A program made the translations under genes and the position numbers. A stretch of DNA of 64,000 nt, taken from assembly GCF_030287445.1 (NCBI RefSeq), contig NZ_JASVWB010000004.1, positions 1,240,001 to 1,304,000 of the forward strand, given 5' to 3'. This DNA is from Streptomyces sp. ALI-76-A. Lineage in GTDB: Bacteria > Actinomycetota > Actinomycetes > Streptomycetales > Streptomycetaceae. Each line of letters opens with the position of its first letter. Within the stretch, counting starts at the first letter, position 1. The notes beneath the pieces were generated by a model that ran no database searches, had not been told where the DNA came from, and saw only the letters and a list, made by a program, of their open reading frames with translations. Positions 40,135 through 55,386 of this stretch are shown one piece after another.

Positions 40135-42387
40135 TCACAGGGTTGCTGGGGTGGATTCCTTGACTGGGTCGTGCGGGGCCGCCGGTTCGGGGGTGTGGAA
40201 GTTCTCGCCCTCGACGTCGAGATGGGGCAGCACGCGGTCAAGGCGTCGCGGCAGCCGCCAGGCCCGGTCCCCGAGGAGTGCCAGGGTCGCCGGCACGAGG
40301 GTCATCCGCACCAGGAAGGCGTCGACCATGACGCCGAAAGCCAGGGCGAAGGCGATCGGCATGATGTCGGCGTCGTGGGAGAACAGGAAACTGACGAACA
40401 CCGAGATCATGATGAGCGCCGCAGAAGTTACCACACGGGCGGCGTTGCGGGCTCCGTTGAGGATGGCCGTGCGGGCGTCGCGGTGGCGGTTGTAGTCCTC
40501 CCGCATGGCGGAGACGAGGAACACCTCGTAGTCCATGGCCAGCCCGAAGAGCACGGACATCACGATGATGGGCACGAAGCTGGCCACCGGACCCTCGCTG
40601 GGCACGCCCAGCGGGCCGGCCAGCCAGCCCCACTGGAAGACCGCGACGGTGGCTCCGAAGGCGGCGCCCACGGACAGCAGGAACCCGATGGTCGCCTTGA
40701 CCGGGATGGCGATCGACCGGAACGCGATCATCAGCAGGAGCAGGGAGAGGCCGACGACGACGATCACGAAAGGCACGAGTGCGCCGCTGAGCTTGTCGGA
40801 GACGTCGATGCTGACCGCGGTCATACCGGTGACGGCGACATGGCTGCCGCTGGACTGTGCCAACGGCTGCATCTGGGTGCGCAGCCGGGAGACGAGGTTG
40901 CTGGTCTCCTCGGACCGCGGTCCGGTGTCGGGGATGATCCGGATGCGTGCGGCCGTCCTGTCCTTGGCCATGTCGACATCGCTGACGTCCGCGATGCCCC
41001 GGACCCCTCGCAGTTCGTCCTCGACGGCGGTGGCCGTGAAGGTGACGGCGGCCGGGTCGTCGTTCTCGACGAGTACGACGAGGGGGCCGTTGGCGCCGGG
41101 ACCGAAGGCGTCACTGATCACGTCGTAGGCCTGGCGGCTGGAGTTGCTTGTGGCACTGGAACCCTCGTCGGTGAGTGCCAGCTTCAGCTCCATGCCGGGA
41201 ACGGCCAGGGCGATCAGGACGACGGTGCCCAGGATCAGGTTGCGTACGGGGTGGCGCAGGACGCCCTGGGTCCAGCGCACGCCCATCGTGGCCGCCCGGC
41301 CGCTGTGCGACGCCGACCACATGGAGCGCTTACGGCCGATGGGCAGGAACCTGCGGCGCCGGGCCGCGGACCGGGGTGCTTTGGGCGTGAGCCGGTGGCT
41401 GGCCATCCCCATCAGCGCGGGCAGCAGGGTCAGTGCGGTGATGACGGCGACCGTGACCGATCCGGCCGAGGCCAGCCCCATGGAGGTGAGCATCGGCACA
41501 CCGGCCACCGACAGGCCGGCGAGCGCGATGAGGACGGTGGCGCCGGCGAATACAACGGCACTGCCCGCGGTGGCGGTGGCCCTGGCGATGGACTCCCTGA
41601 CCGGCATACCGGTACCCAGCTGGGCGCGATGACGGGAGAGGATGAACAGGGCGTAGTCGATGCCGACGGCGAGTCCGAGCATGATCGCCAGGGTGGGCGC
41701 GTTGTCGGAGACGTCGAACACGGTCGCCAACCCCATCATCGCGGCCACCGTACCGATGATGCCGAGCACCGCGGTGATCAGCGGCAGACCGGCGGCGAGC
41801 AGCGACCCGAAGGTGATCACGAGGATGACCAGGGCCACGCCCAGTCCGATCAGTTCGCTGGGCCCCACGGGCGGATGCGAGGTTTCGTAAGGCTCACCGC
41901 CGTAGATGGTCCGCAGGCCCGCCCGCTCGGCCGCGTTCCCGGCGGCCTTCACCGCGTCCAGCGTGCCGGTCGGCACGTCGTCGGCCTCCTTCGTGGTGAA
42001 GGTGACCTCCGCCACCGCGGTGCGCCCGTCCTCGGAGACGGCGTCACGCTCGGACGGGGCACTGACCTCGCCGACACCGGAGACCCGGCCCGTGGCCTCC
42101 AGCGTGGTCTCCAGGGACTTACGCAGATCCGGTTCGGTCACCTTGCGGCCGGGCGGAGCCTGGAACACGATCTGCGCCGACTGGACGTCCGGCTCGGGGA
42201 AGTGCCGTTCCATCTTCGTCAGGGCCGTCTGGGCCGGCGATCCAGGGATGGAGCTGCTGTCGGCGAAGGAGCCGGCGAAGAAAACCCCCAGACCGACCAC
42301 CGCAACGAGGGCCAGGAGCCACCCGATCAACATCGTTCGCCACCGCCGGGCACCCAATGCCCCCAGCCGGTACAAGAGCGTAGCCAT
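40135..42387 (-). CDS. MMPL/RND-superfamily transporter
   Basis: 750 residues. ATG 42387 follows GAGGGA and starts just before the first helix; longer in-frame starts add a non-conserved tail. The fold is the duplicated RND layout: a helix, a large extracellular loop (about 50-180), five helices, a cytoplasmic linker (FLPIGRKRS region), then a second copy. Proton-relay-type motifs are LGLAVGIDYALFILSRHR and VLFGLAMDYEVFLVSAMR. Actinomycete members export lipids, siderophores or antimicrobials. The two-component system downstream suggests inducible resistance. Confidence 0.92.
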   Translation of the reverse strand: MATLLYRLGALGARRWRTMLIGWLLALVAVVGLGVFFAGSFADSSSIPGSPAQTALTKMERHFPEPDVQSAQIVFQAPPGRKVTEPDLRKSLETTLEATGRVSGVGEVSAPSERDAVSEDGRTAVAEVTFTTKEADDVPTGTLDAVKAAGNAAERAGLRTIYGGEPYETSHPPVGPSELIGLGVALVILVITFGSLLAAGLPLITAVLGIIGTVAAMMGLATVFDVSDNAPTLAIMLGLAVGIDYALFILSRHRAQLGTGMPVRESIARATATAGSAVVFAGATVLIALAGLSVAGVPMLTSMGLASAGSVTVAVITALTLLPALMGMASHRLTPKAPRSAARRRRFLPIGRKRSMWSASHSGRAATMGVRWTQGVLRHPVRNLILGTVVLIALAVPGMELKLALTDEGSSATSNSSRQAYDVISDAFGPGANGPLVVLVENDDPAAVTFTATAVEDELRGVRGIADVSDVDMAKDRTAARIRIIPDTGPRSEETSNLVSRLRTQMQPLAQSSGSHVAVTGMTAVSIDVSDKLSGALVPFVIVVVGLSLLLLMIAFRSIAIPVKATIGFLLSVGAAFGATVAVFQWGWLAGPLGVPSEGPVASFVPIIVMSVLFGLAMDYEVFLVSAMREDYNRHRDARTAILNGARNAARVVTSAALIMISVFVSFLFSHDADIMPIAFALAFGVMVDAFLVRMTLVPATLALLGDRAWRLPRRLDRVLPHLDVEGENFHTPEPAAPHDPVKESTPATL

Positions 42388-42450
42388 CAAAGATTCCCTC
42401 ACTGTTCGGAAGACGACTCGCCACATCCTTTTCAAGGGACTTGACGACCG

Positions 42451-42469
42451 CCTCACAGAGAACCTGAGG
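42451..42469. promoter_or_regulatory. Inverted repeat upstream of the MMPL operon
   Basis: CCTCA and TGAGG flank nine bases, 64 bases before the transporter start. On the minus strand it reads CCTCAGGTTCTCTGTGAGG, reminiscent of the repeats bound by OmpR-type regulators in Streptomyces. Weak evidence. Confidence 0.35.
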
Positions 42470-42525
42470 GTTTCTTGACGGTTCGACTCCAGCACCGTCA
42501 GGCATGCCGGTCAGCAGGCATGGGC

Positions 42526-42692
42526 TAGTGCCGTGGCAGGCAACGTTCGCCCCGTCGCGACGCCCGGCACGCCCTCTCGCCGCACCGGCCGAAAGCCCAA
42601 GTACATCCAGTACGAGGGCTTCCGGCCGGCACGCCGAGAGCACGCACCGGACGCCGCTCCTTGACGGGCAAACGTTGCCTGCCGCGGCACTA
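42526..42692. mobile_element. 167-bp MITE-like foldback element
   Basis: Terminal inverted repeats of 27 bases (42526-42552 and 42666-42692) match at 25 positions; the outer ends are TAGTGCCG and CGGCACTA. Inside, arms 42587-42604 and 42610-42627 pair around a 5-base loop with three mismatches, and the intermediate sequence also partly pairs, so the whole element folds back on itself. There is no transposase gene. TA at both outer ends would fit insertion at a TA target. Its last bases overlap the 3' end of the LysR gene. Confidence 0.85.
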
Positions 42693-43667
42693 ATCGGCGC
42701 TCCGCTTGTCCTCGGACTGGTCCCTGGCGTGATCCAGCCGTAGCGGGAGTCGTGCGGCGAGGTAGTCGATGAGTGCGTTGACACGTCGAGGGACATGCCC
42801 GTCCTCCTCCAGGAGGGCATAGATGTCGGAGGCCGGTGTCGACAGGTGCGGCAGGACCCGGATGAGCTCGCCGCGATTCAGATGTGGCCTGACATGCCAC
42901 TCCGAGCGCATGATCACACCACGGCCCTCCAGCGCCCAACCGGTCACCACGTCACCGTCGTTGCTGGACAGACTGCCCTGCACTCGCACGTGTCGGGGAC
43001 GGTCCGCATCCCCGAAGCGCCAGAGGGCGAAATCGCTCTCGTTCTCCCGCAGCACGATGCAGTTGTGGTGGGCCAGATCCTCGATGCTTTCCGGGGTGCC
43101 GTGCGCGGCGAGGTAGGACGGCGCCGCGCAGGGCACGCGCCGGTTCTTGGCCAGACGCCGCATGCGCAGCGAGGAATCGGGCGGCATGCCGACGTGGACG
43201 GCCACGTCGAACTCACGCTGGTGGGGCCTTAGCGGCAGAGCGGATGTCTGCATACGGACGTGCAGTTCGGGGTGGGCCGCGGCGAACTCGCCGAGCAGCG
43301 GCGCGATATGCGCGCGGCCGAGACCCAGTGTGGCTTCGACGACGAGGGATCCGCGCAACCCCCCGGCTGTGTCGGTGATCGTGTCCTCGAGCTCGCGTAC
43401 CTGGTCGAGGATCGCCTCGACGCGCGCCGCGTAGAGCTCGCCCTCCGAAGTCAGCTTCAGTCGGCGGGCGCCGCGCTGAACGAGCCGGACAGCCAGGCGA
43501 TGCTCCAGCGCGCTGAGGCGTTTGCTGACGACGGGAAGGGAGCAACCGAGTTCACGCGAGGCGGCCGTCAGCGTCTCGCTCGACGCGACCACGTGGAAGA
43601 ACTGCAGGTCGTCCACGGCTGAACGGCTCTTGGACCACGGGCGACGAGAACGCCGAGAGCTTTCCAT
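42690..43667 (-). CDS. LysR-family transcriptional regulator
   Basis: 325 residues. The winged helix is DLQFFHVVASSETLTAASRE followed by LGCSLPVVSKRLSALEHRL. The effector domain begins GSLVVEATLGLGRAHIAPLL. It resembles regulators that sit divergently from tartrate or malate dehydrogenase genes, as here (147 bases between starts). Its TAG stop lies within the terminal bases of the adjacent MITE, so the last residues and the stop may have been created by that insertion. The protein still has full family length and is probably active. Confidence 0.88.
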   Translation of the reverse strand: MESSRRSRRPWSKSRSAVDDLQFFHVVASSETLTAASRELGCSLPVVSKRLSALEHRLAVRLVQRGARRLKLTSEGELYAARVEAILDQVRELEDTITDTAGGLRGSLVVEATLGLGRAHIAPLLGEFAAAHPELHVRMQTSALPLRPHQREFDVAVHVGMPPDSSLRMRRLAKNRRVPCAAPSYLAAHGTPESIEDLAHHNCIVLRENESDFALWRFGDADRPRHVRVQGSLSSNDGDVVTGWALEGRGVIMRSEWHVRPHLNRGELIRVLPHLSTPASDIYALLEEDGHVPRRVNALIDYLAARLPLRLDHARDQSEDKRSAD

Positions 43668-43814: not shown

Positions 43815-44972
43815 GTGCCGCAGAGTTATCGCATCGCAGCGATTCCGGGTGACGGGATCGGCCGCGAGGTCGTCCCGGAGGGGCTGAGGTGCCTGCGTGC
43901 CGCCGCCGAGGTGCACGGGTTCCAACTCGACGTCACCGAGTTCGACTTCGCCAGCGCCGACTACTGGCTGCGCCACGGCATGATGCTGCCCGACAACTGG
44001 AGGGACGTACTCGGCGCGTTCGACGCGATCTTCTTCGGTGCGGTCGGATGGCCGGAGGTGGTCCCGGACCATGTCTCGCTGTGGGGGAGTCTGCTGCAGA
44101 TGCGGCGGGGCTTCGACCAGTACGTCAATCTGCGCCCCGTGCGACTGCTGCGCGGTGTGCGCAGTCCGCTGCGTGACCACCAGCCGGGCGACATCGACTT
44201 CTATGTCGTGCGGGAGAACACCGAGGGCGAGTACTCCAGCATCGGCGGCCGGATCTTCGAAGGCACCGATCGCGAGACAGTGGTCCAGGAGACGGTCATG
44301 ACACGGACCGGCGTCGACCGTGTCCTGCGCTATGCCTTCGAACTCGCCGCGTCCCGCCCGAGCAAGCATCTGACCTGGGCGACGAAGAGCAACGGGATCT
44401 CGATCTCCATGCCCTACTGGGACGAGCGCGCAACCGAGATGGCCGCCCGGTACCCCGAAGTGACCGCCGACAAGGACCACATCGACATCCTGACCGCGAA
44501 GTTCGTACTTCAGCCCGAACGGTATGACGTGGTCGTCGCCAGCAACCTGTTCGGTGACATCCTCTCCGACCTCGGCCCGGCCTGCACCGGAACGATAGGC
44601 ATCGCCCCCAGCGCCAACATCAACCCCGACCGCTCCTTCCCCAGCCTCTTCGAGCCGGTGCACGGGTCGGCACCGGACATCGCCGGTCTCGGTGTGGCCA
44701 ACCCTGTCGGCCAGATCTGGAGCGGCGCCATGATGCTCACCCACCTCGGCGAGCACGAGGCGGCCGCGCATGTCGTGGCTGCGATCGAGAGCGTTCTGGA
44801 CGAGCAGCCCGGTGTGCTCACCCCCGACCTCGGGGGCACGGGAACGACGGTGGGGCTGGGCAAGGCCGTCACGGCCCGGATCGCCGCGACGTCTCCCGCC
44901 GGCCACGACGGGGGAGTGGCGGCCGGCGACGCGGCCGGCCGCACGGTCGAAGAGGGGGTCGCGGCGTCATGA
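43815..44972 (+). CDS. Tartrate/D-malate dehydrogenase-like decarboxylating dehydrogenase
   Basis: 385 residues of the isocitrate/isopropylmalate dehydrogenase superfamily. IAAIPGDGIGREVVPEGL opens the fold. The tartrate dehydrogenase branch is indicated by FDQYVNLRPVRLL, VVRENTEGEYSSIGG and LTWATKSNGISISMPYWDER. Metal-ligand Asp residues are visible in NLFGDILSDLG. These enzymes oxidise and decarboxylate tartrate, D-malate or related 2-hydroxy-dicarboxylates with NAD and Mn/Mg. GTG 43815 follows GGAGGGGGAG. The C-terminus has an Ala/Gly-rich extension of about 30 residues. The stop overlaps the next gene (ATGA). Confidence 0.88.
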   Translation: MPQSYRIAAIPGDGIGREVVPEGLRCLRAAAEVHGFQLDVTEFDFASADYWLRHGMMLPDNWRDVLGAFDAIFFGAVGWPEVVPDHVSLWGSLLQMRRGFDQYVNLRPVRLLRGVRSPLRDHQPGDIDFYVVRENTEGEYSSIGGRIFEGTDRETVVQETVMTRTGVDRVLRYAFELAASRPSKHLTWATKSNGISISMPYWDERATEMAARYPEVTADKDHIDILTAKFVLQPERYDVVVASNLFGDILSDLGPACTGTIGIAPSANINPDRSFPSLFEPVHGSAPDIAGLGVANPVGQIWSGAMMLTHLGEHEAAAHVVAAIESVLDEQPGVLTPDLGGTGTTVGLGKAVTARIAATSPAGHDGGVAAGDAAGRTVEEGVAAS

Positions 44973-46648
44973 CCAGACCTCTCTCCGACCCGGTCGGCCT
45001 CGAAGTGCGCTGGGACCGGCTTGCCGCCGCCACCGACGAGGCGGCCTCCACGATGCTGCGCACGGCCATCTCCACGATCATCCGGGAGTCGAACGACTAC
45101 ACCGTCGTCCTGATGGACCGCGCGGGACGCACGATGGCCGAGTCACGAGCCGGCATCCCCGCCTTCGCCGCTCTGATGAGTTCGCTGACCGCGCTGGTCA
45201 TCGAACAATTCCCGGCGGACGAATGGCAGGACGGCGACAGCGTCATCACGAACGACCCGTGGATCGCCACCGGGCACCTGCCCGACATCGCGATGATCTC
45301 CCCGGTCTTCCACCGAGGACGGCTCGTCGCGTTCGCGGGCACCGTGGCGCACTCACCGGACATCGGTGGCACACCTTCGATGAGCGCGACCGAGCTGCTC
45401 TGCGAGGGCATCTTGATCCCTCCACTGCGCCTGTTCCGGGCCGGACAAGTCGAGCAGGGAGTCAAGGACCTGCTGCTGGCGAACGTACGGCTGGCGGACC
45501 AGGTCTGGGGCGACCTGGAGGCGCAGGCCGCGGCGCACGCCGTGTGCCGCCGACGCGCCCAGGAGTTCCTCACCGACTTCCGTGAACCGGACTTCGAGGC
45601 GTTCGCGGACCAGGTCCACGCGCTGACCGACGCCGCGATGCGCGCGGGCCTCCGCGACGTGCCCGACGGCGTCTACCGTGCCTCCCTGGACGCGGACGGC
45701 GTCGAAGGGCATCCCACGCACATCGAGTGCGCGGTGACCGTTCGCGGCGAGGAGGTCGAGATCGACTACACCGGCAGCTCCCCCCAAGTGCCCTTCGCGA
45801 CGAACTCGACGCTGAACTACACCCGCGCCTACTCCATGTATCCGCTGAAGATCCTGCTGGATCCGTCCACGCGGACCAACTGGGGCTCCTACCGGTCCAT
45901 CCAGGTCACTGCGCCGGAAGGCACGATCGTCAACCCGAGGTTTCCCGCGCCCGTCGTGGCACGGCACCTCACCGGGCACCTGTTGTCCTGCGCGGTGTAC
46001 CAGGCACTGGCCCCGGTGCTGCCCGACCGTGTCATCGCCGACAGCGGCGGCGCCCCCGCCCTGCGCGTCCGCTTCGCCGGGGTCGACGACTCCGGCCGGC
46101 CTTTCAGCCTCATGCTCTTCGCCAACGCGGGCATGGGCGCGTCCAAGGAGTCGGACGGGCTCTCCACCACCGCCTTCCCCACCAACTCCGGCGGCGGCAG
46201 CATCGAGGCACTGGAGGCCGCGTCTCCGCTGCGCTTCCTCCGCAAGGAGTTGCGCGCCGGATCGGGCGGACGCGGCCGACGCCGCGGAGGACTGGGCCAG
46301 GACATCGAGGTACTGAATCCGATGAGCCGACCCGTGCAGATGGTTCTGCTCGGAGACCGCGAACAACATCCGGCGCTCGGACTCGCCGGCGGCGAACCCG
46401 GGGCCACCGCACACGTCGTCCTGGACTCCGGCGAGCGCGTCCCCCTGAAGTCGATCTCACAGCTCGCCCCCGGCGCATCGGTGGTCATCTCCTTCGCCGG
46501 CGGCGGCGGGTTCGGCCCCCCGAAGGAGCGTGAGCCCGAGTTCCTGACCGCCGACGAGATCGCCGGCTACACCGTCCCGGCCAGTCAGCAGAACCCGCGC
46601 ACAGCCTGGACGGCGGGCGGTAGCGCATGTGAGGAGGTGGGCCGATGA
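44969..46648 (+). CDS. Hydantoinase B/oxoprolinase-family protein (HyuB-like)
   Basis: 559 residues, the usual length. The family signature near the N-terminus is SNDYTVVLMDRAGRTMAES, followed by NDPWIATGHLPDIAMISPVF, HSPDIGG and TNSTLNYTRAYSMYPLKILL. The C-terminal half has FPTNSGGGSIEALEAASPLR and the Gly-rich GSGGRGRRRGGLGQDIEVL. It pairs with the HyuA-like subunit encoded next (ATGA overlap). Such pairs either open cyclic amides with ATP or carboxylate ketones (acetone and acetophenone carboxylase relatives). The substrate is not evident. Confidence 0.9.
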   Translation: MTRPLSDPVGLEVRWDRLAAATDEAASTMLRTAISTIIRESNDYTVVLMDRAGRTMAESRAGIPAFAALMSSLTALVIEQFPADEWQDGDSVITNDPWIATGHLPDIAMISPVFHRGRLVAFAGTVAHSPDIGGTPSMSATELLCEGILIPPLRLFRAGQVEQGVKDLLLANVRLADQVWGDLEAQAAAHAVCRRRAQEFLTDFREPDFEAFADQVHALTDAAMRAGLRDVPDGVYRASLDADGVEGHPTHIECAVTVRGEEVEIDYTGSSPQVPFATNSTLNYTRAYSMYPLKILLDPSTRTNWGSYRSIQVTAPEGTIVNPRFPAPVVARHLTGHLLSCAVYQALAPVLPDRVIADSGGAPALRVRFAGVDDSGRPFSLMLFANAGMGASKESDGLSTTAFPTNSGGGSIEALEAASPLRFLRKELRAGSGGRGRRRGGLGQDIEVLNPMSRPVQMVLLGDREQHPALGLAGGEPGATAHVVLDSGERVPLKSISQLAPGASVVISFAGGGGFGPPKEREPEFLTADEIAGYTVPASQQNPRTAWTAGGSACEEVGR

Positions 46649-48717
46649 GCCGCACGGTCCGGATCGGCGTCGACGTCGGCGGGACGTTCACCGATCTGCT
46701 GCTGCATGACCCGCGAAGGCAACTGATCCGGCCCGGGAAGCTGCCCACCACGCCCCACGCTCCCAACGAGGCCATCACCGCGGGGATCGCCCGGCTGCTG
46801 GAGGAGACGTCCACGGCCCCCGGAGAGGTCGCGGGCATCGTGCACGGCACCACGCTGGTGACGAACACGCTGCTGGAACGCACCGGAGCGGTCGTCGGTC
46901 TGCTGAGCACCAGCGGGTTCAGCGATTCCCTCGAAATGGGACGGGAGACGAGGTTCGACACCACCGATCTGCTCGCCCGGCCGGCTCAACCGCTGGTGCC
47001 GCGCCCTCTGCGCCGTGGCGTACCCGGGAGAATCGCCGCGGACGGCAGTGAACTCGAACCGCTCGACGAGCGTGCCGTCCTCACGTCTGTGCGGGATCTG
47101 ACAGACCAGGGCATCGAGGCACTGGCCGTGGCCCTGATGCACTCCTACCGCGACGCCCGTCACGAGCACCGGGTGCGGGACCTGATCGCGCGGGCACACC
47201 CCGACCTCCCCGTCACCCTCTCCAGCGCCGTGGCCCCGGTCATCGGTGAGTACGAGCGGGCCGGTACCGCCTGCCTGAACGCGTATGTGCAGCCCCTGAT
47301 GTCGCGCTACCTCGACGACCTGCGTGACGATCTGACCGTCATGGGGATCGACGCGCCCCTTCGCATCATGCTCTCCGGCGGTGGTGTCACGACCCTCGAG
47401 GACGCCAAGCGGTTCCCGGTACGGCTGCTCGAGTCGGGCCCCGCGGCCGGTGCTATCGCCGCTGCCGCCGTCGCCAGGACCTTGGGGGAGCAGGACGTGG
47501 TCTCCTTCGACATGGGCGGGACCACGGCGAAGATCGCTGTCGTCCAGGGGGGCAGGCCCAGGCTCAAGCACGACTTCGAGGCGGGGCGGGCCGACAAGTT
47601 CAAGCCCGGCTCGGGGCTGCCGGTGCGCCTGACCGTCGTCGACATGATCGAGATCGGGTCGGGAGGCGGCTCGATCGCGGCACCCGACGCACTCGGGCTG
47701 CTGAAGGTGGGACCGCGCAGCGCCGGCTCGGTCCCCGGGCCTGTCGCCTACGGGCGTGGAGGCGAGCGACCCACCGTGACGGACGCCGACCTGCTGCTGG
47801 GCTATCTCGACGCGGAGAACTTCCTCGGCGGCGAGATGAGGCTGCGGACGCGCGAGGCCCACAAGGCGCTGACCCGTGAGGTGGCGGGCCCCCTGGGACT
47901 CGACACCGCTGACGCCGCCGCCGGGATCGTGGAGGTGGTCACCGAAAGCATGGCCGCCGCCGCCCGTATGCACCTGTCCGAGCAGGGCAAGGACCCGGCC
48001 GACTTCGCGCTGCTGGCCTTCGGTGGAGCCGGACCCGCCCATGCCTACGGGCTGGCGAAGTCGCTGAAGATCCCCCGAGTGATCGTGCCGATGCGGGCTG
48101 GGGTGATGTCCGCCTGCGGGCTCCTCGCCGCCGCTCCCACGGTCGACGAGGTCCGCAGTCTGCCGTCGCCTCTCGCCGACATCGACTGGGACCAGGTCGT
48201 CGCGCTGTACGACGAGATGACGCTCCGCGCCACCGAGACGCTCCAGGCGGGAGACCCGGAGCTCGTGCGGGTACGCCGCTCGGCCGACATGCGTTACCTC
48301 GGCCAGGGTTTCGAGATCGAGGTCACCGTGCCCGAGCAGGACTTCGGTCCAGCCGGTCTCGGACGCATCCGGGCCGCCTTCGAGTCCACATACCGCGCCG
48401 TGTTCGGCCGTTGCCTCGAGGGTGCAGTGGAAGTCGTGAACTGGCGGCTTTCTGTGCGACTGCCCCGTCATGAGCTGTCGACCGAGGGCAGCCATGCCCG
48501 GGGAGGTGCGGCGAGCCGCGGTGTCCGGTCGGTGTACGTTCCCGGACACGGCCTGCTCGAGGCCACCGTGTGGAACCGCTACGAGCTCACGCCGGGAACC
48601 GAGCTGGCAGGTCCGGCGATCTTCGAGGAGCGCGAATCGTCCTGCTCCTTCGGGCCGGACTGCAGGATCCGGGTCACCGACGACCTGACCCTCCTGATCG
48701 AGGTCGGCCGGGACTGA
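46645..48717 (+). CDS. Hydantoinase A/oxoprolinase-family ATP-binding protein (HyuA-like)
   Basis: 690 residues. Actin-like ATPase fold motifs are visible: VRIGVDVGGTFTDLLLHDP, GTTLVTNTLLERTGAVVG, then FDMGGTTAKIAVVQGG and IGSGGGSIA. ATP is used to activate the substrate carbonyl in this family. It normally works as a heteromer with HyuB. The family is shared by N-methylhydantoinases, 5-oxoprolinases and carboxylases; no third carboxylase subunit is present, so an amidohydrolase role is somewhat more likely. GGAGG lies nine bases before the start. Confidence 0.9.
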   Translation: MSRTVRIGVDVGGTFTDLLLHDPRRQLIRPGKLPTTPHAPNEAITAGIARLLEETSTAPGEVAGIVHGTTLVTNTLLERTGAVVGLLSTSGFSDSLEMGRETRFDTTDLLARPAQPLVPRPLRRGVPGRIAADGSELEPLDERAVLTSVRDLTDQGIEALAVALMHSYRDARHEHRVRDLIARAHPDLPVTLSSAVAPVIGEYERAGTACLNAYVQPLMSRYLDDLRDDLTVMGIDAPLRIMLSGGGVTTLEDAKRFPVRLLESGPAAGAIAAAAVARTLGEQDVVSFDMGGTTAKIAVVQGGRPRLKHDFEAGRADKFKPGSGLPVRLTVVDMIEIGSGGGSIAAPDALGLLKVGPRSAGSVPGPVAYGRGGERPTVTDADLLLGYLDAENFLGGEMRLRTREAHKALTREVAGPLGLDTADAAAGIVEVVTESMAAAARMHLSEQGKDPADFALLAFGGAGPAHAYGLAKSLKIPRVIVPMRAGVMSACGLLAAAPTVDEVRSLPSPLADIDWDQVVALYDEMTLRATETLQAGDPELVRVRRSADMRYLGQGFEIEVTVPEQDFGPAGLGRIRAAFESTYRAVFGRCLEGAVEVVNWRLSVRLPRHELSTEGSHARGGAASRGVRSVYVPGHGLLEATVWNRYELTPGTELAGPAIFEERESSCSFGPDCRIRVTDDLTLLIEVGRD

Positions 48718-48907
48718 ACCCCCCTCCCCAGTCGTCACCGAAGAGTGCAGCGTCGCGCAGCCGCCGAAGGCGGCGGGACGGTCGGCGACCCGTCCGAGGA
48801 GTGGCTGCCCCACCTGCGGCGGCAAACGGACCGACGCCGCTCACGCCCACACCGACAACCTATCCAGCAGTTGCCCAGCATGATGGCGGCGCGAAAGGAC
48901 GACCCTC

Positions 48908-50182
48908 ATGACGACGGTGTCTGCAGGGCAGCGCACACCGACCCGGCGCATCACGTTTCTGGTCGCTCTCGCGGTCTTCGCACAGGAGTCGACCTGGAAC
49001 TTCTACGAGTCTCAGGTTCCGCCGTTCCTGCGGGAGCACATCACCAGCGCGGCCGTCGTGGGTCTGCTGATGGGCATGGACAACCTGCTCGGCATCTTCA
49101 TCCAGCCGTGGATCGGCAACCGGTCCGACCGGACGAGGACCTCCTGGGGCCGGCGGATGCCCTACCTGGTGGTCGGAATGCCGATCGCCGCCGCGCTGTT
49201 CGTCCTCATCCCGCACAGCGCGGCGTCCTTGCCGTTGTTGATCGTGGTGATGTTCTCGTACGCGCTCGTCGCCAACACCTTCAAGCCGATTGCCGAAGCG
49301 CTCGTTCCGGACTTCATCGCACCCGAGCGGCGAAGCCGGGCCAACGCCGCGGTCAAGATCGCCTCGAGTGTCACGGCCATCGTCGGCGCGCTCATCAGTA
49401 TTTTGCTGGTCGACAACCACCTGAGTCTGGCGTTCGCGATACCCGCGATCATCATGCTGATCTCGATCGGGGTGCTCGCGGCCACCGTGCGCGACAACCG
49501 GTCTCCGGCCTACCAGGCAGCGGTGGCCGAGTGCGCTGCGGAGGACAGTGCCGAACGCCCCGAGCCACGGGTCCGGGACACCTTCGTCGAGATCCTCAGG
49601 GATGCCGATCGCAGCCGGCTCCTGCTGCTCCTCGCGATTCTCCTCTTCGGCAGCGCGTGGTCCGCGTCCCGGTCGTTGATCACGCCGTACGGGATGGAAG
49701 CCCTGGACATGTCACGGGGAGCCGCCGGCGGTCTCACCCTGCCCAGCGGTATCGCCTTCATCCTGGCGGCCTACCCTGCAGCCGTGCTCGCCGAGCGGTA
49801 CGGGCGGCTGCGGGTCATGGCCGTGGGGATGTCGGTCTTCGCCGGCGCCATGGTGCTGGGGACACTCATCCAGACTCCGACGGGTGCCACCGTGGCCCTG
49901 TGCCTCGCGGCGGCCGGCGCGACCTGCTTTCTGGTCAACGCGGTGGTCGTCCTGTGGAACCTCGCACCCTCGGCGCGCGTCTTCGGGACGTACGCCGGTA
50001 TGTACACCGTCGGCTGGGCCGGTGGCGGCTTGCTGGGCCCCGCGCTGGTCGGCGGGATGGTCGACATCACCGGCTGGCCTCTGATGCTCATCGACGTCGC
50101 CATGGTCGCCGCGCTGTCGATCATCGTCGTAGCCAGGATCAGCGCGCTTCAGCGTCGCGCCGGCCTGACCCTGGCCAAGTAA
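48908..50182 (+). CDS. MFS transporter of the catabolic cluster
   Basis: 424 residues with 12 predicted helices. The N-terminal part (FYESQVPPFLREHI, GLLMGMDNLLGIFIQPWIGN then RSDRTRTSWGRRMPYLVV) is the pattern of the glycoside/sucrose-type MFS branch. A charged central loop (about residues 200-235) splits the two halves. A 190-base gap precedes it, so it may have its own promoter, but orientation and spacing place it in the same cluster. Likely the uptake system for the compound degraded by the flanking enzymes. Confidence 0.85.
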   Translation: MTTVSAGQRTPTRRITFLVALAVFAQESTWNFYESQVPPFLREHITSAAVVGLLMGMDNLLGIFIQPWIGNRSDRTRTSWGRRMPYLVVGMPIAAALFVLIPHSAASLPLLIVVMFSYALVANTFKPIAEALVPDFIAPERRSRANAAVKIASSVTAIVGALISILLVDNHLSLAFAIPAIIMLISIGVLAATVRDNRSPAYQAAVAECAAEDSAERPEPRVRDTFVEILRDADRSRLLLLLAILLFGSAWSASRSLITPYGMEALDMSRGAAGGLTLPSGIAFILAAYPAAVLAERYGRLRVMAVGMSVFAGAMVLGTLIQTPTGATVALCLAAAGATCFLVNAVVVLWNLAPSARVFGTYAGMYTVGWAGGGLLGPALVGGMVDITGWPLMLIDVAMVAALSIIVVARISALQRRAGLTLAK

Positions 50183-50243
50183 CCAGCCCATCCCCGCAAC
50201 GCGGCGCGAGCCCAGCGCCGGACGCAGCCAGAGACGAGGAACC

Positions 50244-51230
50244 GTGTCCCGCATTCTGATCACCACGGACTACCTACGGCCCGGCGACGAGGTCGATCAC
50301 TATCTTCGGGCGCACGGCCACACGACGGTACACGCCCCGCTCGTCGGCCGACACGGTCGGGAGCAACTCGTCGCCGCGCTCGACGGGATCGACGCGGCGC
50401 TCGTCGCCCATGAGCCCCTGACCGCCCAGGTCCTCTCCGAAGCTCCCCGGCTGCGCGCCCTCGTGCGCACCGGCGTCGGCTACGACTCGATCGATGTCGT
50501 CGCCGCGGGCAGGCTCGGCATCACGGTGAGCAATCTGCCGGGAATCAACGCCAACGCCGTGGCCGAGTACACCCTCGGTCTGCTGCTGGCGGCCGCCCGG
50601 CGACTGGTGCAGAGCGCGGCGGGCGTCGCTGCCGGCGGCTGGCCGAGGGAGGACGGTCACGAGTTGCGCGGGTCGGCGCTCGGCCTGATCGGATACGGGG
50701 CGGCAGCGCGCGCCGTGGTGCCGCTGGCGCGAGCCTTCGGCATGGAGGTGCTGTGCACGACCGGTGTGCCCAAGGACGAGCGATCGGACCCGTCGGTGCG
50801 GTTCGTCGCGCTCCCCGAGTTACTCGAGGCCTGCGACTACGTATCGGTGCACACCGCGCTGACGGACCGTACACGCGGTCTCCTGGACGCCTCCGCCTTC
50901 CGGCGGATGAAGCCGACGGCGGTGCTGGTCAACACCGCGCGGGGGGCCGTCGTCGACGAGCATGCCCTCGTCGACGCCGTGCGGACCGGCGAGATCGCCG
51001 GGGCGGCGCTCGACGTGGTGAGTGAGGAGCCGCTCCCGGCCGACAGCCCGCTGCGGGACGTCGAGGGGATCGTCGTCTTCTCGCACCTCGCGGGCCAGAC
51101 CGCCGAAGCCCGTGCAGCCGCCGGCCTCGAGGGCGCGGCCGAGGTGGTGGCCGCCCTCGCGGGCCGCCCCCGGTTCGCGGTGAACGCCCACCTGCTGCCC
51201 CAAGCCCCCACAGTCCGGGTCGACGGGTGA
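50244..51230 (+). CDS. D-isomer-specific 2-hydroxyacid dehydrogenase
   Basis: 328 residues. Cofactor domain GLIGYGAAARAVVPLARAFG; catalytic Arg in VNTARGAVVDE, Glu in DVVSEEPLP and His in VFSHLAGQT are all present. The family reduces 2-ketoacids to D-2-hydroxyacids or the reverse (phosphoglycerate, glyoxylate and similar substrates). The second Gly of the usual GxGxxG is followed by Ala. The context suggests interconversion of a 2-hydroxyacid intermediate with the tartrate dehydrogenase-like enzyme. GTG start after GACGAGGA. Confidence 0.9.
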   Translation: MSRILITTDYLRPGDEVDHYLRAHGHTTVHAPLVGRHGREQLVAALDGIDAALVAHEPLTAQVLSEAPRLRALVRTGVGYDSIDVVAAGRLGITVSNLPGINANAVAEYTLGLLLAAARRLVQSAAGVAAGGWPREDGHELRGSALGLIGYGAAARAVVPLARAFGMEVLCTTGVPKDERSDPSVRFVALPELLEACDYVSVHTALTDRTRGLLDASAFRRMKPTAVLVNTARGAVVDEHALVDAVRTGEIAGAALDVVSEEPLPADSPLRDVEGIVVFSHLAGQTAEARAAAGLEGAAEVVAALAGRPRFAVNAHLLPQAPTVRVDG

Positions 51231-51272
51231 CATCCGCCCGCCCCGTGCCCGGTACCGAAAAGAAAGAGGAAC

Positions 51273-52658
51273 ATGGAAAACGAACGGGTTGACCAGGTCA
51301 AGGTCCTGGCACCGACCGGCATGCTCGGAGCCGGCTTTCCCGAGGCCACGATCGAGCGGGGCCTGGCGCTCGGCGCCGATGTCATCTCCGTCGACGCGGG
51401 CAGCACCGACTCCGGTCCCTACTATCTCGGCGCGTCGCAGCCCAAGACCAGCCGCGCGGCGGTCGCCCGTGACCTGCGCGTCCTTCTCAGGGCGGCGGCG
51501 GAGGCCGGCATCCCACTGATCGTGGGCTCGTGCGGCACCAGCGGAACCGACTCCGGTGTCGACTGGGTCGCCGACATCGTCGCCGACATCCTGGCGACCG
51601 AGGGACTCCGGCTGCGGGTGGCGCGTATCTACAGCGAGCAGTCGACCGGCACGCTCCTCAAGCGCCTGGACGAGGGCCGCATCCATGCCCTGCCTCCGCT
51701 GGGCGAACTGGAGCCGAAGACACTGCAGAGCTGCACGCACATCGTGGGTGCGATGGGACATGAGCCGATCGTCGCGGCGTTGGAGGCAGGTGCACAGGTC
51801 GTGCTCGCCGGCCGCGCGACCGACACCGCCATCGCCGCCGCCCATCCGCTGATGAAGGGGATGCCGGCCGGCCCGGCATGGCACGCCGCCAAGATCATCG
51901 AGTGCGGCGGACAGTGCACCAGCAATCCGCGCACGGGTGGGGTTCTGGCCACCATCGACGCCGACGGCTTCACCATCGAGCCGCTCGATCCGACGGCCGC
52001 CTGTACACCGATCCTGGTCGCCGCCCACATGCTCTACGAGACGGTGGACCCGTTCCAGATGCGCGAGCCGGACGGCACCCTGGACGTCCGTGAAGCCGTC
52101 TACACCGCCCTGGACGACCGGACGGTGCGGGTCGAGGGTTCGCAGTTCCATGTCGCCGACCAGCACACCATCAAACTCGAAGGCGCCCGGATCACCGGCT
52201 ACGAGACGATGTCGTTCAGCGCAGTCCGGGACCCGCACATTCTTGCCAACATCGACGACTGGGCCGATCTCATGCGGACGATGATCGGGCAGCGGGTGGA
52301 GCAGACGATCGGCCTCAGCGAGGACAAGTACGCCTTCGACCTGCGCCTGTACGGGCACAACGCCATCCTGGGGGATCTCGATCCGGCAGTGGGTCCGCCT
52401 CGCGAGGTGGGAGTCATGCTCCTCGTCAATGCCCCGGACCAGAGCACCGCCACCGCCGTCGCGAAGATCGCCAACCCCTTGATGCTCCACCTGCCGACGG
52501 CCGACATGGACTATCTGCCGAGCCTGGCGTTCGCCACCTCGCCGGCCGAGGTCGAGCGCGGCCCGGCGTACGAGTTCGTGCTCAACCACGTCGTCGACAC
52601 CATCACCCCCACCGACATGTTCCGCACCGAGTTCGCGGAGGCCTCCCACCATGGCTGA
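51273..52658 (+). CDS. AtuA-family (DUF1446) protein
   Basis: 461 residues. Recognised from the N-terminal VISVDAGSTDSGPYYLGASQ, the block GSCGTSGTDSGVDWVADIV, the GRATDTAIAAAHPL motif and AWHAAKIIECGGQCTSNP. Members include the acyclic terpene utilisation protein AtuA and proteins of aromatic or lactone pathways; no reaction is firmly assigned to the family. It is co-encoded with a DUF4387 protein, the usual partner, by an 8-base overlap. ATG start after AAAGAGGA. Confidence 0.85.
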   Translation: MENERVDQVKVLAPTGMLGAGFPEATIERGLALGADVISVDAGSTDSGPYYLGASQPKTSRAAVARDLRVLLRAAAEAGIPLIVGSCGTSGTDSGVDWVADIVADILATEGLRLRVARIYSEQSTGTLLKRLDEGRIHALPPLGELEPKTLQSCTHIVGAMGHEPIVAALEAGAQVVLAGRATDTAIAAAHPLMKGMPAGPAWHAAKIIECGGQCTSNPRTGGVLATIDADGFTIEPLDPTAACTPILVAAHMLYETVDPFQMREPDGTLDVREAVYTALDDRTVRVEGSQFHVADQHTIKLEGARITGYETMSFSAVRDPHILANIDDWADLMRTMIGQRVEQTIGLSEDKYAFDLRLYGHNAILGDLDPAVGPPREVGVMLLVNAPDQSTATAVAKIANPLMLHLPTADMDYLPSLAFATSPAEVERGPAYEFVLNHVVDTITPTDMFRTEFAEASHHG

Positions 52659-52977
52659 GACCGCCCCCACCACCCTGGGCGACCTGGCGTATGAAGTCCG
52701 CTCCAAGAACGCCGGGCCGTTCTGGGTCACCATGGAGCTGTTCATGCGTGACGCGGACGGCTATCGCATCGCGGCCGACGAGAGGTTCCTCAACGAGGGC
52801 ACGATCGCCCGGCTCTACGGACTCGACGAGGCCGACGTGCGGATGTTCCGCATCCCGTCGCTGAACGTCGTCAAGATCTCTTTCCCGCGTCCCGTAAGCC
52901 AGGCGTCACTGCGTGACCGTGACGTCCACTCAGGTCAGCACCATGTGCCGCTGGCGGTTCTGCCTGTGCCAGCCTGA
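52651..52977 (+). CDS. DUF4387-family partner of the AtuA protein
   Basis: 108 residues. The core (DLAYEVRSKNAGPFWVTMEL, RIPSLNVVKISFPRP) is the small domain usually encoded directly after, or fused to, AtuA-family proteins, which suggests a complex. The last 25 residues (from about SQASLRDRD) are polar and not typical. Its start overlaps the end of the AtuA gene by eight bases. Function unknown. Confidence 0.82.
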   Translation: MAETAPTTLGDLAYEVRSKNAGPFWVTMELFMRDADGYRIAADERFLNEGTIARLYGLDEADVRMFRIPSLNVVKISFPRPVSQASLRDRDVHSGQHHVPLAVLPVPA

Positions 52978-53080: not shown

Positions 53081-54535
53081 TTGAACACACCTGCCGTGCC
53101 CGGACCCGGTCCTCGTCCTCGGGTTCGCGGACGCCGTTCGGTGATGCTGACGGCACTGGTCGCGGCCGTGATGGTGGGCACGCTCGGCATCGCACCCGCC
53201 TCCCCGGCCGACACCACGCGCCCCACTCCCGCCGCCTGCCCGGGCCACCTGGAGGACAAGGCCAACTGCTACACCGGCCGGGACGCCAACGGCGCGTACT
53301 ACACGATGGCCCTCCCCGAACACTGGAACGGCTCCCTCGTCGTCCACTCCCACGGCGGTCCCGACTTCTCCTACGACGAGTCCACCAGTACCGAGGACCT
53401 GAAACGCTGGGCGGTGATGGTCGACGAGGGCTATGCCTGGGTGGGCTCCTCGTACCGGCGTGGCGGCTACGGGGTCAGGATGGCCGCCGCCGACACTGAG
53501 AACGTACGCCGCCTGTTCGTCAGCCACTTCGGCCGCCCCGACCGCACCTACCTGCACGGCCAGTCCTGGGGCGGCAATGTCGTCGCCAAGGTCGCCGAGA
53601 CCTACGGCCGCGAGCGTGGCGCCTACGACGGAGTCCTGCTGACCAACGGCTTCCTGGCCGGCGGCTCGCGTGGCTACGACACGCGCGTGGACCTGCGAAC
53701 GGTCTACCAGTACTACTGCCGCAACCTGCCCCGTCCCAGCGAGCCGCAGTACCCGTTGTGGCAAGGGCTGCCCGCGAACTCCCCGACGACACCCGACGAG
53801 GTCCACAGCCGCCTCCAGGAGTGCACCGGCATCGGCTCCGCCCCGGCCGACCGGACCGCCGAGCAGCAACGCAACCTCGACGACATCCTGGCCGTCACCC
53901 GCATCCCGGAGCGGTCCCTGGCCACGAACATGCAGTACGCGGTCTTCCTCGTCCGGGACATCGTGTCCAACCGGCTCGACGGCCGTAACCCGTTCAGCAA
54001 CCGAGGGGTCCGCTACGACGGTTCGCACGACGACAAGGCGCTCAACGCCGACGTGGCGCGCTTCTCGGCCGACCCCACCGCGCGCCGCGACCTCTCCTAC
54101 GACAGCGACCTCACCGGACGGATCGCGCTCCCGGTCCTCACGTTGCACGCCATCGACGACCCACAGGTCTTCGTCGAGCACGAGGCGGCCTATCGCGCCA
54201 CGGTCCGGGCCGCCGGCAGAAGTGAGAACCTCGTCCAGACCTTCACGAGGGAGAGCGAGCACAGCAGGCTCAGCAACGCCGAGTACGCCAACTCTCTTGC
54301 GGCTTTGGACACATGGGCGCGCACCGGCCGGAAGCCCACCCCCGGCTCGATCGCGCGTGCGTGCGGCGCGTTCGACAACCACCACGGTGGTGGCTGCTTC
54401 TACGATCCGGCGTTCCGCCCAGCCCCGTTCGCCACCCAGGTCCGCCCCCGGCCCGGCGGCCTCCACTGGCCCGCAATGTCCGCCGCGCAGGAACAGGTGT
54501 GGAGCCGTATCGAAGGCGTGGGCATCGCACCATGA
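53081..54535 (+). CDS. Secreted alpha/beta-hydrolase (TTG start)
   Basis: 484 residues from TTG 53081, chosen because AAGGAG lies seven bases upstream and a signal peptide then sits at the N-terminus (SVMLTALVAAVMVGTLGIA, cleavage near SPADT). The catalytic triad candidates are Ser in HGQSWGGN, Asp in HAIDDPQV and His in ESEHSRL. The C-terminal region (about 410-484) with GGGCFYDPAFRP is shared with a broken second copy at 55.1 kb. The substrate is unknown; an esterase or peptidase acting outside the cell is likely. Confidence 0.82.
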   Translation: MNTPAVPGPGPRPRVRGRRSVMLTALVAAVMVGTLGIAPASPADTTRPTPAACPGHLEDKANCYTGRDANGAYYTMALPEHWNGSLVVHSHGGPDFSYDESTSTEDLKRWAVMVDEGYAWVGSSYRRGGYGVRMAAADTENVRRLFVSHFGRPDRTYLHGQSWGGNVVAKVAETYGRERGAYDGVLLTNGFLAGGSRGYDTRVDLRTVYQYYCRNLPRPSEPQYPLWQGLPANSPTTPDEVHSRLQECTGIGSAPADRTAEQQRNLDDILAVTRIPERSLATNMQYAVFLVRDIVSNRLDGRNPFSNRGVRYDGSHDDKALNADVARFSADPTARRDLSYDSDLTGRIALPVLTLHAIDDPQVFVEHEAAYRATVRAAGRSENLVQTFTRESEHSRLSNAEYANSLAALDTWARTGRKPTPGSIARACGAFDNHHGGGCFYDPAFRPAPFATQVRPRPGGLHWPAMSAAQEQVWSRIEGVGIAP

Positions 54536-55109: not shown

Positions 55110-55386
55110 AGGGCACTGCGAACTGAGCAATGCCGAGTACGCCAATTCCTTCACGCGCTTGGCACTTGGTCGCGCGCTGGCCAGGTGCCCTCTCCCAGCT
55201 CGATCGCGCGTTCCTGCAGTGACTTCGGCAACACCTACGGCAGCGGCTGCTTCTATGACGCCGATTTCCGTCCCACGCCGTTCGCCGCCCAGGTCTACCC
55301 GCGGCCCGGCGGCCTGCGGTGGCCGGCCATGTCCGCCGCGCAGGAGCGCGTGGCGCCGGATCGACGGGGTGGGCATCGCCTTCTGA
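55110..55386 (+). pseudogene. C-terminal fragment of a second alpha/beta-hydrolase copy
   Basis: The segment reads ELSNAEYANS, then after a frame change near 55155 SIARSCSDFGNTYGSGCFYD, FAAQVYPRPGGLRWPAMSAA and finally, after another frame change, WRRIDGVGIAF. This closely parallels residues about 395-484 of the intact hydrolase encoded at 53081-54535. The two share sequence at the DNA level too, indicating a duplicated and then decayed neighbour, with IS debris between the copies. Confidence 0.85.

Follow-up and report, generated by a model that had tools for sequence, protein, structure and literature searches.

The gene cluster described here occupies positions 43815-52977 of a 64,000-nucleotide stretch (hereafter, the window) of the genome of Streptomyces sp. 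ALI-76-A, a soil actinomycete, and comprises seven open frames on the plus strand, each passing its Pfam cut-off. In order, these encode a tartrate/D-malate-type beta-decarboxylating dehydrogenase (TDH, 43815..44972; Iso_dh, 291 bits); HyuB, a subunit of an ATP-dependent amide hydrolase/carboxylase-type enzyme (44969..46648; PF02538 Hydantoinase_B, 457 bits); HyuA, the ATP-dependent activating subunit (46645..48717; PF01968, PF05378 and PF19278, with 281 and 164 bits for Hydantoinase_A and its N-terminal domain); an MFS transporter (48908..50182; PF07690 MFS_1, 113 bits, and PF13347); a D-2-hydroxyacid dehydrogenase resembling phosphoglycerate dehydrogenase or glyoxylate/hydroxypyruvate reductase (HADH, 50244..51230; PF02826 2-Hacid_dh_C, 177 bits, and PF00389); the CmlA-like large subunit of an AtuA-family lyase (51273..52658; PF07287, 93 bits); and its CmlB-like small subunit, a DUF4387 protein (52651..52977; PF14330, 101 bits). 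These genes are a real, conserved variant of hydroxyacid catabolism around a citramalate-lyase-like pair, undescribed as far as literature searches reach: as the initial annotation supposed, no pathway with this gene set was found described in the open-licence PubMed Central (PMC) literature.

The frames and domains also bear out seven collinear genes with overlapping ends and a divergent LysR-type regulator (42690..43667, minus strand; PF03466 and PF00126). Three pairs overlap (TDH/HyuB and HyuB/HyuA by 4 bp, AtuA/DUF4387 by 8 bp), and the remaining gaps measure 190 bp (HyuA-MFS), 61 bp (MFS-HADH) and 42 bp (HADH-AtuA). The regulator, separated from TDH by 147 bp, has TtdR as its top NCBIfam model (192 bits, below the cut-off of 398). 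Directly downstream of the cluster, and absent from the initial annotation's gene list, lies a gene for a probably secreted tannase-like alpha/beta hydrolase (about 53081..54535, plus strand; PF19878 DUF6351, 28 bits against a cut-off of 22 when scanned from 53084). It begins some 103 bp beyond the end of DUF4387, at a TTG (53081) inferred from a GGAG site, and the N-terminus of its product, judged by eye, resembles a signal peptide. A consensus scan, which returned no promoter-like site and about as many terminator-like sites as expected (3 found, 2.9 expected), gives no information on operon limits.

The AtuA/DUF4387 lyase pair

AtuA aligns with PDB 9erq chain A over residues 9-443 (300 bits, E 3e-88) and DUF4387 with chain B over residues 9-102 (44 bits, E 1.4e-10), matching both subunits over nearly their whole length. 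The depositors of 9erq and 9evf name these chains citramalate lyase subunits CmlA and CmlB, so the view that AtuA/DUF4387 pairs lack an assigned reaction no longer holds; AtuA described as a citramalate lyase was not found in the open-licence PMC literature. An AtuA protein encoded on a Salmonella plasmid (L062), adjoining methylaspartate ammonia-lyase, scores 978 bits against the CmlA chain of 9erq/9evf, which identifies the solved enzyme as the methylaspartate-cluster type; citramalate is the expected intermediate of that Salmonella cluster. Passages of an earlier study place a DUF1446 gene downstream of methylaspartate ammonia-lyase in Enterobacteriaceae, including E. coli O157:H7, and leave the fate of citramalate unsolved (PMC4682846).

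With CmlAB the window pair shares two adjacent subunits, one of the AtuA family and one DUF4387 protein, and the family-invariant residues: an alignment of 28 AtuA proteins from Actinomycetota, Pseudomonadota and one haloarchaeon, the Salmonella protein included, contains 35 invariant columns. It differs from CmlAB in its clade. In a tree of 28 AtuA proteins hand-chosen from the fetched loci, the window protein, whose identity to the methylaspartate-cluster protein is approximately 35%, is placed not in the CmlA clade but in an 18-row clade (support 100/99) that excludes both the Salmonella protein and a fumarase-linked protein from a Klebsiella plasmid (L061). Given this placement, the pair probably acts in the manner of citramalate lyase, though its substrate would not be citramalate itself. 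Furthermore, 29 positions are fixed differently between 11 rows near the window protein and three CmlA-type rows, and the glutamate mutase, methylaspartate ammonia-lyase and class I fumarase genes that neighbour CmlAB are all missing beside the window pair.

A second point of comparison is the AtuA of the terpene pathway, a member of the same Pfam family that is likewise named an acetate-releasing lyase (PMC4847356). The Thauera protein has 615 amino acids, against 461 in the window, and the passage concerned names no DUF4387 partner for it. Terpene degradation was rejected as an explanation, as no geranyl-CoA carboxylase, hydratase, acyl-CoA synthetase or coenzyme A (CoA)-activating genes are found among the cluster genes. 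The chemistry common to citramalate lyase and terpene AtuA would, by our own generalisation, be the release of acetate from a carbon bearing a tertiary hydroxyl.

Our preferred reading, to which we assign a probability of roughly one half, is that the cluster may be a catabolic island for a branched hydroxy-di- or tricarboxylic acid of the form 2-hydroxy-2-R-succinate, in which a tertiary alcohol lies next to a CH2-COO- arm. Alternatively, the pair could be a plain citramalate lyase yielding acetate and pyruvate, accompanied by other hydroxyacid enzymes serving the same diet, with TDH acting on D-malate or tartrate; we consider this unlikely, if credible. The similarity of both subunits to CmlA/CmlB agrees with such a role, as does a TDH score above the TIGR02089 cut-off, but the clade, the low identity and the 29 fixed differences argue against it, mesaconase, methylaspartate and itaconate genes are all lacking among the window cluster genes (methylaspartate ammonia-lyase being present in the Salmonella locus), and pyruvate requires no HADH.

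Conservation and linkage of the cluster

DUF4387 is rare, occurring in 5 of 396 Actinomycetota genomes, the window's own included; that genome contains single matches to DUF4387, AtuA and HyuA, and two to TDH (the second at 46% identity). Neighbourhoods were compared at 31 AtuA loci from a scan of a genome collection with short peptide patterns, which retrieves close relatives only and is non-exhaustive. Counts refer to the 28 loci with at least 64% AtuA identity (L044, L045 and L047, at 46, 41 and 37%, were left out), and the stretch fetched for each extends 10 kb to either side where the contig allows (the L041 contig is 4 kb). DUF4387 is present at all 28 close loci, HADH and MFS genes at 23 each, TDH at 16, LysR at 15, HyuB at 11 and HyuA at 10, and neither HyuB nor HyuA lies within the fetched stretch at 17. 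The conserved core is the transporter, HADH, AtuA and DUF4387, and HyuBA is an optional module. A central role for HyuAB ring opening, the emphasis of the initial annotation, is not supported, given these 17 loci. Its broader proposal that the genes serve the uptake and catabolism of a hydroxyacid, which it had made depend on conservation of the neighbourhood beyond this strain, is supported: the arrangement recurs across several genera, and is more than chance.

Gene order varies. L031-L036, L039, L040, L043 and L046 carry a GntR gene oriented divergently to the transporter/HADH/AtuA operon; in Amycolatopsis (L046) the order is LysR-TDH-HyuB-HyuA, GntR, MFS-HADH-AtuA-DUF4387, in L039 and L043 the GntR gene separates TDH from the MFS half, and in L032 and L036 TDH (58 and 56% identity) sits between HADH and AtuA. 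Gene orders such as that of L046 suggest two or three joined modules, rather than a single operon with a constant set of genes.

Directly after DUF4387, on the same strand, 8 of the 28 close loci have the tannase-like gene; all are Streptomyces, and they coincide with the eight named Streptomyces loci that carry HyuBA. In one Amycolatopsis locus (L043) the tannase-like gene follows one gene later, after an alpha/beta hydrolase gene overlapping DUF4387 by 4 bp. HyuB(A) occurs without it in L040, L041 and L046, and a genome of the window's genus (G007) contains HyuBA, but has a transposase gene in its place. A relic duplicate of its C-terminal end lies further downstream in the window (55119..55352, plus strand; 60% identity over 78 amino acids, E 4e-26). 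On the other side of the cluster, adjoining the LysR gene, is a transporter-like gene, of MMPL type by eye (40135-42495, minus strand); a gene of family c10 occupies this position in six of the eight named Streptomyces loci with HyuBA, an MMPL gene (Pfam) lies near HyuBA in L117, and relatives are found in L118 and L040.

Other genes adjoin the pair in individual relatives. These include a class II aldolase (PF00596) in two loci of the window's genus (L119 7082-7957, L129 10316-11152); in Phycicoccus, an FAD-dependent dehydrogenase (NF009472, 950 bits; L036 11748-13427) whose gene shares 4 bp with DUF4387; and RraA-like genes beside AtuA/DUF4387 or HyuBA (L038 11696-12433, L040 15478-16155, L117 8198-8899, L118 14784-15485, L065 8673-9356). 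In genome G070 (L117), where the RraA-like gene stands beside HyuBA and AtuA is missing, it is perhaps an alternative lyase. Near its main cluster, Streptomyces sp. XY006 has a further, diverged set of MFS, AtuA (48%), DUF4387 and hydrolase genes (L024 402-4275).

The proteobacterial evidence derives from a plasmid collection, in which 49 records match AtuA and the surroundings of 13 were viewed, and from one contig (L045). In Cupriavidus oxalaticus and Variovorax paradoxus, HyuB, HyuA, a phosphoglycerate-dehydrogenase-like gene, AtuA and DUF4387 are contiguous in other gene orders; in Variovorax boronicumulans the set is split into two parts approximately 6 kb apart, and an MmgE/PrpD gene and a secretory lipase adjoin the dehydrogenase. 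A HyuA search of the plasmids gave 251 records at E 1e-100 or better; among the best 30 of these 251, the top three (57.1, 56.9 and 55.3%) are C. oxalaticus, V. paradoxus and V. boronicumulans as a set, and the fourth (50.0%) has no AtuA in its fetched stretch. Further AtuA/DUF4387 pairs of Alpha- and Betaproteobacteria are found with tricarboxylate-type (TTT) transporter genes, and ABC transporters accompany some pairs.

More distant pairs occur in other settings. The Klebsiella plasmid set (L061 5961-15057), consisting of LysR, AtuA, DUF4387, aldehyde dehydrogenase, short-chain dehydrogenase/reductase, alcohol dehydrogenase, aldehyde dehydrogenase and fumarase genes, resembles a complete pathway that starts with a C5 alcohol or dicarboxylate and ends at a lyase of the citramalate type. 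In the haloarchaeon Halomarina (L060 1403-12921), AtuA/DUF4387 is found with a luciferase-like monooxygenase (LLM) flavin oxidoreductase, amidohydrolases, isochorismatases, a CoA transferase and a CoA ester lyase, a set that by analogy resembles N-heterocycle breakdown. The proteobacterial contig (L045 176-11547) carries two AtuA/DUF4387 pairs with HyuA/HyuB of another HyuA lineage between them.

Linkage of HyuBA to the pair was assessed in trees and in a genome survey. A HyuA tree of 37 rows (7 duplicate loci, and hits below 150 bits or 80% coverage, left out) places the window protein in a clade of 17 rows (SH-aLRT 99) that spans Actinomycetota and Betaproteobacteria with varied gene orders, and 16 of the 17 lie within about 8 kb of AtuA, a proximity in distant taxa that argues for functional coupling. 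On the AtuA tree, the seven HyuBA-linked rows need four changes, of which well-supported branches force at least three. The three Betaproteobacterial HyuA rows group together, but their AtuA neighbours do not. The HyuBA label does not track AtuA descent, HyuBA having either joined AtuA repeatedly or been lost several times. Among 100 genomes, the window's included, strong AtuA matches (E 1e-90 or better) occur in 10, TDH of at least 80% identity in 3, and clade HyuA in 4. All three TDH genes are on AtuA's contig and within 7 kb of it, and so, with respect to the contig, are three of the four clade HyuA genes, the fourth being that of G070; G068 has clade HyuA and AtuA without a close TDH. As a control, all nine non-clade HyuA genes (E 1e-60 or better) in strong-AtuA genomes lie away from AtuA, eight on other contigs and one about 1.45 Mb off, some of the assemblies being fragmented, which weakens this control.

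These data bear on two further explanations. The neighbourhood could be a chance assembly of independent modules, with LysR-TDH serving tartrate or D-malate, HyuBA a lactam or hydantoin, and MFS-HADH-AtuA-DUF4387 something else, in line with the lack of HyuBA at 17 and of TDH at 12 of the 28 loci, and with the GntR gene that divides the halves in L046 and TDH from the MFS half in L039 and L043. We regard this as decidedly unlikely, given the HyuA clade's proximity to AtuA in 16 of 17 rows from distant taxa and the separation of all nine non-clade copies, the four changes on the AtuA tree, which amount to repeated pairing or loss, and the TDH gene between HADH and AtuA in L032 and L036. That opening of a cyclic compound by HyuBA is the obligate first step, with the other enzymes processing its product, is very unlikely: in two phyla, HyuA of a single clade accompanies AtuA and a hydroxyacid dehydrogenase, but HyuBA is missing from those 17 close relatives, most of which retain the rest, and was accordingly rejected as an obligate core.

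A candidate pathway and its possible substrates

HyuA and HyuB have the Pfam domains, ATP motifs and metal ligands of hydantoinases and oxoprolinases. The motifs DVGGT, DMGGT and PGP are present in HyuA, and, at hand-counted positions, D43, H103, D106 and H128 of HyuB align with the Asp41, His99, Asp102 and His124 tetrad of caprolactamase CapB; a match of CapA Lys40 to a HyuA lysine was dropped owing to a numbering misfit. The likeness to caprolactamase CapAB, hydantoinase and 5-oxoprolinase thus covers both subunits, the ATP motifs and the tetrad; the differences are that the NCBIfam cut-offs are missed (CapA 474 against 1000, CapB 219 against 1000), and that HyuBA of the window sits among a lyase and dehydrogenases. 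It is very doubtful that HyuBA is instead a ketone or 2-oxo acid carboxylase of the acetone/acetophenone carboxylase type, its product feeding or fed by the lyase: the subunits are homologous to those of carboxylases and the metal ligands, largely kept in carboxylases as well according to a passage of PMC8453981, are common to both groups and not decisive, but hydrolases outscore carboxylases for both HyuA and HyuB, with top HyuA structures of N-methylhydantoinase (7hk5, 412 bits) and 5-oxoprolinase (6yra, 366 bits) ahead of acetophenone carboxylase (293 bits), and caprolactamase (474) ahead of ApcC (296, cut-off 1500), ApcA (215, 1250) and ApcD (86, 1500), none of which reaches its cut-off.

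TDH passes the equivalog cut-off of the TIGR02089 tartrate dehydrogenase model (556 bits, cut-off 470), misses that of a second tartrate dehydrogenase model, NF006048 (488 bits, cut-off 501), and has tartrate dehydrogenase/decarboxylase as its top structure (3flk, 516 bits), with an alignment over nearly its whole length. To our knowledge, tartrate and D-malate clusters lack AtuA/DUF4387 and HyuBA, and a tartrate-only cluster was rejected since it leaves the acetate-lyase pair unexplained. HADH keeps both Pfam domains and the catalytic Arg/Glu/His of the active site, and has no Asp after the second beta strand, where an acidic residue marks NAD use. Such a residue is missing from 35 of 36 HADH hits, or 30 of 31 distinct ones once the window and four repeats are removed (the dehydrogenases of L117, L118 and L128 fell outside the length filter). 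The motif points to NADP(H), and hence to reduction. A glycerate kinase encoded in the window's genome is weak support for a D-glycerate end product, such kinases being common in controls also (5 of 14 control genomes).

Taken together, these features suggest the following steps. The tannase-like hydrolase would free the acid from an ester extracellularly, and the MFS protein would import it. The AtuA/DUF4387 heteromer would then, by analogy with CmlAB, split 2-hydroxy-2-R-succinate into acetate and a 2-oxo acid (R-CO-COO-); cleavage without CoA or acyl carrier protein (ACP) chemistry is proposed because no CoA-transferase, ligase or ACP gene was found among the cluster genes. HADH would reduce the 2-oxo acid with NADPH, in the simplest case hydroxypyruvate to D-glycerate, and TDH would carry out beta-decarboxylation of a C4 hydroxyacid or of oxaloglycolate, which TDH-type enzymes handle. 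Import, cleavage and reduction would together account for the conserved core of transporter, HADH, AtuA and DUF4387. HyuBA would provide an optional entry module for the ATP-dependent opening of an amide- or imide-type precursor.

Several observations weigh against this route. Its substrate class is extrapolated, given the clade of the window AtuA and the 29 fixed differences. HADH is missing from 5 and TDH from 12 of the 28 close loci, the tannase-like gene lies near only 9 of them, and four plasmid homologs of that gene, when inspected, had no AtuA alongside. Betaproteobacterial HADHs are 35-38% identical to that of the window, at which level equal function is not assured. HyuBA linkage, moreover, is no more clustered on the AtuA tree than expected by chance (151 of 500 shuffles as low); in G070, the 17th row of the HyuA clade, HyuBA is accompanied by the RraA-like gene and a dehydrogenase 41% identical to HADH in a genome with no AtuA match; and the HyuA between the two AtuA genes of L045 (38%), a row not counted in the linked group, falls outside the clade.

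Two substrates fit as guesses. With R as hydroxymethyl, the acid would be itatartarate and the product hydroxypyruvate; with R as hydroxycarboxymethyl, hydroxycitrate and oxaloglycolate. A more specific version, improbable as it stands, is a bacterial route that takes hydroxylated branched acids of fungi or plants without recourse to CoA, in which AtuA/DUF4387 would be an itatartarate lyase (giving acetate and hydroxypyruvate, the latter converted by HADH to D-glycerate) or a hydroxycitrate lyase (giving acetate and oxaloglycolate, converted to D-glycerate by decarboxylating TDH and HADH), and cyclic or esterified forms would enter by way of HyuBA and the secreted hydrolase. The nearby hydrolases and the Variovorax MmgE/PrpD gene agree with esters and branched acids, without choosing among candidates. 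Itatartarate is described as a fungal acid formed by opening of 2-hydroxyparaconate, and the passages concerned leave one further conversion of it, seen in Pseudomonas, unexplained, the authors speculating on dehydration followed by decarboxylation, not on an acetate lyase (PMC9875883). The Pseudomonas itaconate and methylsuccinate clusters likewise act on branched C5 dicarboxylates, and MmgE/PrpD is common to them and the V. boronicumulans cluster; in contrast, they use a CoA transferase and citramalyl-CoA lyase, according to parts of two studies (PMC12290011, PMC9875883), and neither is found among the window cluster genes.

AtuA/DUF4387 pairs, distributed among Actinomycetota, Pseudomonadota and a haloarchaeon, are mostly annotated as terpene utilisation or unknown function, and the solved structure now gives their chemistry. 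The cluster points to a second AtuA/DUF4387 lineage, in Actinomycetota and Proteobacteria, that is often coupled to a hydroxyacid dehydrogenase and HyuAB and would act on a substrate other than citramalate. The pair is predicted to liberate acetate from a 2-hydroxy-2-substituted succinate, and the cluster could fill a gap in the known routes for branched hydroxy acids.

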